From Auricularia sp. M13 (lineage: Eukaryota > Basidiomycota > Agaricomycetes > Auriculariales > Auriculariaceae): 64,000 nucleotides of DNA. Under the pieces are notes generated by a model, which was given only the letters and a program-made list of their open reading frames with translations, made no database searches and was not told the DNA's origin. Location of the stretch: positions 3,906,001 through 3,970,000 of the forward strand of contig CM073193.1 of assembly GCA_037042915.1 (NCBI GenBank). The letters run 5' to 3'. The number at the start of each line of letters is the position of its first letter. The stretch's first letter is position 1. The position numbers and the translations under genes are program-made. Below are positions 25,224 to 28,528 of the stretch, in pieces.

Positions 25224-28200
25224 ATGACTGACGCGCCACGTTCGCGGAGATCCAGCGACGCGTCGGACGGCGAGCGGTTCGTGTACCCTGGCGCATCCAG
25301 CGACAACGAGGAAGAGGAGCAAGAATTCAAGTATCCGGGCGCGGCGCAAAGTGACGACGACGACGAACCGTTTGTCTATCCAGGAGCAGAGCATTCCGAG
25401 CAGCACGAGGCGAGCTCACCGCCAATCACGCCGGCCATTGCGTCCGCGGCGCAGCCTTCGCCTGCTCAACTCGAAGCTCTCTATGCATCTGCCGCCACGG
25501 GAGACCTTGAGCTCGTACAGACGCTGTTCCAGAAAGCGATATCTGCGTATCAGATTGCGGCGTTCGTGCTCGCCAACGATGCCAGCACCCGGACTGGTCT
25601 GACTGCTCTTCACGGCGCGGCTAGCCGTGGCCACCTCAATGTCGTGAGCTGGCGTATGTGTCCTATTTTTCTATCTTTCATACTGCATGCCGTGCTCAAG
25701 ACTGCCTAGTTATAGAAGAATGCGGCGCCATGGCCGATCTTGAAGATAGGGAAGGAGAGGTACGTAAATCGTATTTTTGCTAGCTCTTGCTCAAGGGTTC
25801 ATAGACTGCCCTCCATAAAGCGGCCTTGCAAGGCCGTCTGAATATCATCAGTTATCTATTGTCGCTCAATGAGGGCCGCGCAGACGTGCACGCCACCGAT
25901 CATGACGGTTGGACCGCATTGCACAATGCTTGTTCTAAGGTTAGCATCTCAACACTGAACACTTTCCAAGTATGATGACACCTATAGGGCTACCTGGATA
26001 TTGTGAAATGGCTTTGCGAACGAGGTGGCGCTGCCGACGTTGTACAGCTTTCGTCCGGTTCAGTGCGCGGTGTCGACCGGAAAGCGAAAGGCGGCTGGAC
26101 ACCTCTAATGAACGCTGCCTCCAAAGGGCATCTACCCGTCGTCCTTTACCTCCTCGCAAAGCAGGCGGCAGACCCACTTGTTCGCAATGACTGGGGAGAA
26201 ACTGCCTACGACGTAGCGGCTGCGGTCTTTGAGGTATACATAGTGCAGGTGATTGTTGACGTGCTTTGCGGTCACAACGCTGCTAAAATATGTTCAGGTT
26301 CTGCAAAAGGCGGAGGCTGAGCGTTGGCGGAATTCGCTTGCGCAGTATAATCCACTGGCAGTTCACACAACCGTACCGCTCATCCTCCATGAGAACCAAC
26401 GTCTCGATGCCAAGTTCAAGACGCTTGCTGTATCAGCGGGCAAACCCAAATTTTCCGCTTCTGGGCTCGGTCGCAAGGGACGTCACAGTCCATTTGAACT
26501 ACGCCTTCCCCCTGCAAACTATGATCAGGCAAGGCTGACATTCCAGCATGGCGGAGTGATGTGCAGCTGCCTCTACTCGAGGACCCATTCCAGGTCCCCA
26601 AACCTAAAGGGGCCGTTCGCGAAGGAGCTGAAAGAAGTCATTTCTGGCTGTATGATGTTTTTCTCGGCGCTTCTTCGTCCACTGACATGTCCATACAGGT
26701 CCGACTGGACCTTGGATCTGACGCATCCAAAGGTCGATGTTGAAGAAGGCTGGCAATACGCTCGCACCTTTGATGACCCGGACGATCAATGGACCGCCGA
26801 GCCTCCCGCGATGCTGGAACGCATACTTGCCGGCTCAGGAGTTCTGTCGCCAGCGATGGGAAACACAGTTAATGGCGAATCGAGCGCCCGGTCTCGCAAC
26901 TTGCCACCGACAGCCTGGGTGCGGCGGCGTCGATGGGTACGAGTAATGCGTCGGCGGCTCGACATCGCACCACTTTCGTTTCTCCAACCGGATGGCAATA
27001 TGTACGCGCTTTCTGAATCCGGTGCTCTCGTACTGGTGCAGGGCAATGCCGACGGTCAGGAATTGGGGGCAATGCCAGCGTCTTTCCTGTCGCATTCTAA
27101 AGATTATGTTGCCCGCGCGAGGTACCTTGCGGGTAGCTCGGCGGACCGCGACGCATCTACCACCCCCGCTGACGTGCGCCGTGGGATCGCCAAACTGGAG
27201 CGCGCTGTTCTCGAGCTCCGTACTGGCATGCTTGGTACGTACATTGCCTTGTCTGGGGAATGGACGCAGGCTGATAAATGATAGGCGATGAAAATGATGA
27301 ACGGAAAACTCAGGCTGAAGTGCTCCTGAATGCTTATAATCGTGAACTTGAAAGACGAAGGCTGGCCGCTGGTGCGCAGGGCATAGTGTTGCGAGACGAA
27401 GACGGTTACGACGACGACGGAGTGGATTCGGACGATGAAAGCGTCCGCTATCCCAGCTCTGAGCCTTCGACTACGCGACCGGAGTCAATTCGCTCTGGGA
27501 CAACACCTGATTATTTCAGCCGCCCGTCGTCCTCACGGCTACCCGCGGATTTGACGCCGCAACTTCAAGCAGCACCGGAATTCCGGGTCCCCACCCACGA
27601 GGCACCTCAGAAGGTCGTCAACTCACGCGCGAACATCCCTACACCGCATCAGGTTGACGCGCAGTGGGAACGGGATGATACCGTGCAGATCTGCAGAGGG
27701 TGCAATCGCCGTTTCACGTTGTTTTTCCGTAAAGTGAGCTTTTCCAATGTGCTTTGTACGAAACTAGACCTGACATTCCCTCTATAGCATGTGCGCGAAA
27801 CGTTCTTATAATTTTATTCAAAGGCTGATAGTTGCTTTAGCATTGTCGCCGATGTGGCCGCATATTCTGCGACCGTTGTTCATCTTTTAGAGCAGCGTTG
27901 GATCCGGCAGACGTCGTCCAGGATCCCCTCGCCGCGGAATTCATCCCCCCAGGAACGCTTCAACGCGTCTGCCAACCATGCTATGACCAGGCGAATTCTA
28001 CGGCTCCTCGTCCCTTGCAAGGTGCACGCACGGGCTCGTTAGAACGCATCGTGCTCGACCAAGGCCGCCTGACTGCTCCGGCTCATAGCCGCGATGTCAG
28101 CTCACAAATCTCGGACCTCGCAGACTGTCCGGTGTGCAGCCAAAACCTCGCAGAACTCGGTCCGGTTGCTGTACAGGAAGCGCACGTCAAGAACTGTCTC

Positions 28201-28528
28201 GATGGGGGAGGAGGTCGTACGCCCCACGCGGGCGCGAAGTACCTCGTGTACCGTCTTCCTCCTGAGAGCCCGCTCATTGGCATAGAATGTGAGTTGACTA
28301 TTTCCTTGCCCCAGCTCGGTCTAAGGTCATTTCGTCATTCAGGTGTAATTGCCTTGAGGAATTTGCGAAAGGGTCCCTAATCGCTCGTTTGAGCTGCCTA
28401 TGCACATTCCACAACTGTACGCAATTTGATCTGCTCACCGTTCGGTTCTCATTGACGTTCGCCTAGCCTGCCTCTCTGCTTGGTTGCAACGAGGTCGCAG
28501 TTGTCCTGTGCATGCCCGTGATGCATAA
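25224..28528 (+). CDS. Ankyrin - DysF-like - FYVE - RING protein (apparent frameshift in RING)
   Basis: Multi-domain protein probably acting as an endosomal E3 ubiquitin ligase. The acidic N-terminus carries three copies of an F-x-YPGA motif (FVYPGA, FKYPGA, FVYPGA). Ankyrin repeats follow: GLTALHGAASRGHLNVV, GETALHKAALQGRLNIISY, WTALHNACSKGYLDIVKWL, WTPLMNAASKGHLPVVLYLL. The middle part (GWQYARTFDDPDDQW ... WVRRRRWVRVMRRRLD) resembles the DysF/peroxin domain. FYVE: [29 protein letters not shown], complete only if CAT at 27788-27790 is a 3-nt microexon. The last part reads CPVCSQNL and, after an intron ending at 28342, a RING: CLEEFAKGSLIARLSCLC, then NSCLSAWLQRGRSCPVHARDA after an intron about 28411-28467. 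The frame needs one extra T near 28350. As written, the frame stops at 28378-28380. Confidence 0.75.
27788..27790 (+). other. 3-nt microexon (His of the FYVE RKHHCR motif)
   Basis: CAT flanked by CTATAG on its left and GTGCGC on its right. The two introns are 27734-27787 (54 nt, GTGAGC...CTATAG) and 27791-27840 (50 nt, GTGCGC...TTTAG with a CTGAT branch). Including it gives RKHHCRRCG, the FYVE signature; skipping it leaves a single His with the frame unchanged. Confidence 0.7.

Follow-up and report, generated by a model that had tools for sequence, protein, structure and literature searches.

The Upa1-like gene analysed here lies on the forward strand of a 64,000-nt stretch of the Auricularia sp. 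M13 genome (the window) and, in all probability, its mature mRNA contains an exon of only three nucleotides. The exon, a single CAT codon, would supply the first histidine of the RKHHCR motif in the FYVE domain of the protein. Judged from the sequence, CAT is most likely a constitutive exon that is included between two short introns. The features of the locus are as follows.

25224-28528, + strand: Upa1-like gene with F.YPGA motifs, ankyrin repeats, FYVE domain and RING-like end; 12 exons, CAT among them, hand-made model
25278-25388, + strand: three PAM2L-like motifs, FVYPGA, FKYPGA and FVYPGA, starting at residues 19, 35 and 50
27285-27733, + strand: upstream exon, first half of the FYVE domain, 3' end encoding ...CRGCNRRFTLFFRK
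27734-27787, + strand: intron 1 (54 nt), GTGAGC...CTGAC...CTATAG, GT-AG, phase 0
27788-27790, + strand: 3-nt microexon CAT, first His of RKHHCR
27791-27840, + strand: intron 2 (50 nt), GTGCGC...CTGAT...CTTTAG, GT-AG, phase 0
27841-28288, + strand: downstream exon, second half of the FYVE domain, beginning HCRRCGRIFC (HCRRCGRIFCDRC)
28289-28342, + strand: RING intron (54 nt), canonical GT-AG

The bases match the original prediction exactly with respect to the CAT codon, the two introns of 54 and 50 nt, and their coordinates. The branch-like CTGAC of intron 1 ends 13 nt before the end of the intron, and the CTGAT of intron 2 ends 11 nt before its end. Splicing across CAT gives the product ...NRRFTLFFRK-H-HCRRCGRIFC. 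Because introns 1 and 2 are both in phase 0, omission of CAT preserves the reading frame and converts the motif to RKHCR, and the proposal that skipping would leave the frame open is therefore borne out. Retention of intron 1 introduces an in-frame TAG, and retention of intron 2 an in-frame TAA.

Splice models across the FYVE core were enumerated as single introns (GT-AG, GC-AG or AT-AC) and as pairs of GT-AG introns, each of at least 35 nt, around an exon of 1-21 nt. The models were scored as the BLOSUM62 mean against fragments taken from three FYVE domains of known structure. Among the stop-free models, which comprised 74 with a single intron and 193 with two, the highest mean score (126.3) was obtained by introns 27734-27787 and 27791-27840 with CAT between them. 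The second-ranked model (112.3) was a single 107-nt intron that skips CAT, the best of the 74 single-intron models, while the third (100.0) was a double-intron model that includes CAT and five extra residues. None of the single-intron GC-AG or AT-AC models outscored GT-AG. The Pfam FYVE profile (PF01363) scores 72.4 bits with CAT, the match covering profile positions 1-66 of 67, compared with 61.8 bits without the codon, a value still far above the cut-off of 27.8. The Pfam scores, together with the ranking of the splice models, uphold the view that a 3-nt exon completes the R(R/K)HHCR motif.

FYVE domains are described as carrying three signatures, WxxD, R(R/K)HHCR and RVC (PMC3001460). The spliced protein contains WERD and RVC, and displays RKHHCR only when CAT is included. 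R(R/K)HHCR is found in all five of the PDB alignments (the best 5 of 15 hits) and in all of at least five other FYVE loci in the same genome (L001, L002, L003, L004 and, once spliced, L006). It is because this conserved motif demands the CAT codon that we regard an inference from a single genome as strong. Mutations of the EEA1 site that lies at the core of RRHHCR are reported to lower affinity for PI3P (PMC8491906), and it is plausible that the loss of one histidine would disable the predicted PI3P binding of the Auricularia protein.

A chance origin of the CAT architecture is unlikely. The 107-nt region was dinucleotide-shuffled 100,000 times with its first six and last five bases held fixed, and a strict form of the arrangement was defined as YAG-CAY-GTRNG, with a minimum length of 40 nt for either intron and a CTRAY located 7-20 nt from the end of each. 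This strict form arose in 0 of 100,000 shuffles, its equivalent with any codon in 2 of 100,000, and the bare AG-CAY-GT in 301 of 100,000. On the two strands of the window there are 641 stretches of 95-120 nt that run from GTRNG to YAG, nine of which hold the bare form and one the strict form; the sole strict stretch must be 27734-27840 itself.

The remaining introns of the gene were placed by hand, using reading frames and repeats, and the stop codon of the RING-like frame was taken as the gene end (28528). The 11 placed introns, introns 1 and 2 included, are 38 to 64 nt long. As the other nine occupy this 38-64 nt range, introns of 54 and 50 nt fit the gene, while one of 107 nt does not. CTRAY at 9-13 nt from the intron end occurs in introns 1 and 2 and in those at 26650 (12 nt) and 27235 (9 nt). 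The other seven introns lack CTRAY in this range, one having TTGAC at 10 nt and another CTGAC at 27 nt. With only 4 of 11 introns conforming, the CTRAY branch rule is not general in the gene, and the branch signal supports the microexon model without proving it. Exons usually end in AG before a donor. The second donor is preceded by CAT, a departure that counts against the microexon model. Elsewhere in the gene, a very short probable intron with GC-AG ends (38 nt; 26529-26566; CAG/GCAAGG...GTGCAG), also placed by hand, joins two reading frames.

In the prevailing view, a short intron in fungi is recognised as a unit. Introns 1 and 2 would each be recognised in this way across the intron, with donor, branch site and acceptor within ∼50 nt, and would be removed in turn, one at a time, since three nucleotides leave hardly any room for two splicing complexes together. 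Whichever intron was excised first, a usable site would remain for the other. CAT would need no exon-wide recognition, because a donor, a branch motif and an acceptor are present in both introns. Near-complete inclusion of the codon is to be expected, as skipping would require the first donor to bypass a near acceptor. In the resulting product the FYVE pocket would regain its conserved His-His pair and, by analogy with Upa1, the protein may be tethered to PI3P-bearing endosomes.

If 27734-27840 were instead a single intron of 107 nt, the mature protein would carry RKHCR and CAT would be a chance triplet amid chance splice-like signals. Such an intron is in frame, heads the 74 single-intron models and leaves a FYVE match of 61.8 bits. 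It would, however, break the histidine pair that is common to at least five other FYVE loci and to the five PDB alignments (best 5 of 15), and it exceeds the length of each of the other nine placed introns. In addition, the strict internal signals that it would contain by accident were seen in none of the 100,000 shuffles, though bare AG-CAY-GT appeared in 301. We therefore consider a single 107-nt intron very unlikely. Two adjacent short introns, such as introns 1 and 2, resemble a stwintron in layout. In a nested, stwintron-like arrangement CAT would leave with the outer intron once the inner intron had been removed; the conserved histidine would, however, be lost just as it is with the single intron, and this arrangement deserves almost no credence.

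That skipping keeps the frame underlies the idea, raised in the original prediction, that CAT is a regulatory switch. As a regulated cassette, the included codon would give an endosome-binding form of the protein and its omission a soluble or pH-blind form. A switch-like microexon has been described in Trichoderma Xlr2 (PMC11121469), and the two histidines of the FYVE domain are described as a pH-dependent switch (PMC3001460). Against this, the one structural test applied, which looked for local RNA folding able to mask or expose the CAT exon, gave an ordinary value (z 0.41). Both introns also come with a donor, a branch motif and an acceptor, and skipping must pass a near acceptor equipped with CTGAC. 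These data do not support a switch, and a regulated cassette appears highly improbable. We likewise place very little weight on the proposal that CAT inclusion sets a paired-histidine, pH-sensing FYVE pocket, controlling the endosomal amount of an Upa1-like mRNA-transport adaptor. A constitutive CAT exon remains the preferred explanation.

The CAT exon belongs to a rare but known class, as exons of 1 nt, 3 bp and 6 bp have already been published. Three nucleotides had been put forward as the lower limit of exon size, a claim that does not stand in view of the 1-nt exons reported in Arabidopsis APC11 (PMC4674806) and Fusarium CYP621A (PMC12940212). The Fusarium example resembles CAT in being a fungal, ultra-small exon between two introns, which was inferred from an incomplete conserved motif (PKG in that protein) with an over-long apparent intron as a clue. 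It differs in belonging to another gene family, in its length of 1 nt, whereby skipping breaks the frame, and in being present in ∼20 orthologues and confirmed by reads (PMC12940212). The APC11 exon is, like CAT, constitutive and only a few nucleotides long, but it is a 1-nt plant exon that was tested experimentally (PMC4674806). Drosophila homothorax has a 3-bp micro-exon that, as with CAT, brings about an in-frame change; this micro-exon, in contrast, is alternatively spliced, forms the opening 3 bp of an exon of 48 bp and lies between conserved domains, whereas CAT is inside one (PMC7392893). In the white-rot basidiomycete Phanerochaete chrysosporium, P450 microexons are described as spread genome-wide; they are likewise small exons between small introns, frequently of 45-55 bp, but encode 2-10 residues, the shortest exon being 6 bp (PMC1184071). 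Two further papers considered as microexon precedents, PMC3990503 and PMC4014442, were rejected, as the single use of 'microexon' in each refers to an aligner setting. No prior report of the CAT exon emerged from the literature searches, which covered open-licence papers. Exons of this kind tend to escape both gene predictors and read aligners, and CAT, lying midway through a lipid-binding motif, is a clean case. Where CAT is missed, the annotation silently acquires the wrong FYVE pocket.

Upa1 of Ustilago maydis is described as an endosomal adaptor for mRNA transport that is localised via its FYVE domain. The C-terminal part with FYVE and RING is enough for movement, which is abolished by deleting FYVE and RING together but not by deleting RING alone (PMC4466420). 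By its predicted domains, the gene with the CAT exon is of the Upa1 layout. The 870-aa hand-made model matches Ank_2 at 175.5 bits and FYVE at 69.4 bits in Pfam, and a comparison of layout shows that ankyrin repeats, FYVE and acidic F.YP motifs are common to the two proteins; in the Auricularia gene FYVE is followed by RING-like sequence, whose frame conflicts with that of the preceding exon. Upa1 has two PAM2L motifs and one PAM2 (PMC4466420), whereas the Auricularia gene has three F.YPGA motifs, all near the N terminus. Acidic residues precede these motifs, most densely at the second and third. The published PAM2L core is [D/E][D/E][D/E]FVYP (PMC4466420), and the match to this strict core is partial, as the residues directly before the F are GER, EQE and DEP, in no case three acidic residues. 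Rrm4, the partner of Upa1 with MLLE domains, did not emerge from an MLLE profile search of the genome: the one match lies in a gene whose RNA-recognition-like repeats and proline-rich linker suggest a poly(A)-binding protein. Between the ankyrin repeats and the FYVE domain (26640-27000), the protein reads SDWTLDLTHPKVDVEEGWQYA...WVRRRRWVRVMRRRLD, a stretch that we take to resemble domains of the DysF/peroxin type; Pfam returned no match to such a domain in the protein model at E 0.01.

The RING-like end of the gene presents a conflict of frames. After the intron at 28289-28342 the exon runs ECVIALRNLRKGP-stop; the RING-like CLEEFAKGSLIARLSCLCTFHN lies in a different frame, and with the canonical junction the reading frame ends before 28528. 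Thirteen single GT/GC-AG introns leading into the RING-like frame were tested, and none puts a C-x2-C pair ahead of it. The RING matches in Pfam came from a joined sequence that has no single-frame counterpart in the window. The conflict at 28289-28360 possibly reflects an assembly error of one base, a genuine frameshift by which the RING is lost, or an unusual junction; part of the sequence or of the hand-made gene model may be wrong, which weighs against the microexon model.

The other FYVE loci of the genome bear on the history of the two introns. In L001-L004 the two histidine codons are contiguous. In L006, which is a different FYVE gene, a phase-0 intron of 65 nt (L006:1442-1506) falls exactly between the two histidine codons, the position within the motif that intron 2 occupies. 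This shared position would reflect either common descent or a favoured site for introns. The intron sequences share no similarity that would discriminate between these origins: the score of intron 1 against intron 2 was reached in 329 of 500 shuffles, that of the L006 intron against intron 1 in 106 of 500, and that of the L006 intron against intron 2 in 62 of 500. Apart from the gene itself, a search of the Auricularia genome for a second copy returned a single hit, a weak FYVE match (E 0.19). Searches for an orthologue with a 151-aa query yielded 11 pattern matches in viral_contigs and 88 in genome_contigs, both non-fungal sets, with no relatives in either. There is an even chance that intron 1 is a later insertion one codon upstream, which created the microexon. 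Together with the L006 intron at the same His-His site, the CAT exon may illustrate the birth of a microexon through the arrival of a second intron one codon from an older one.
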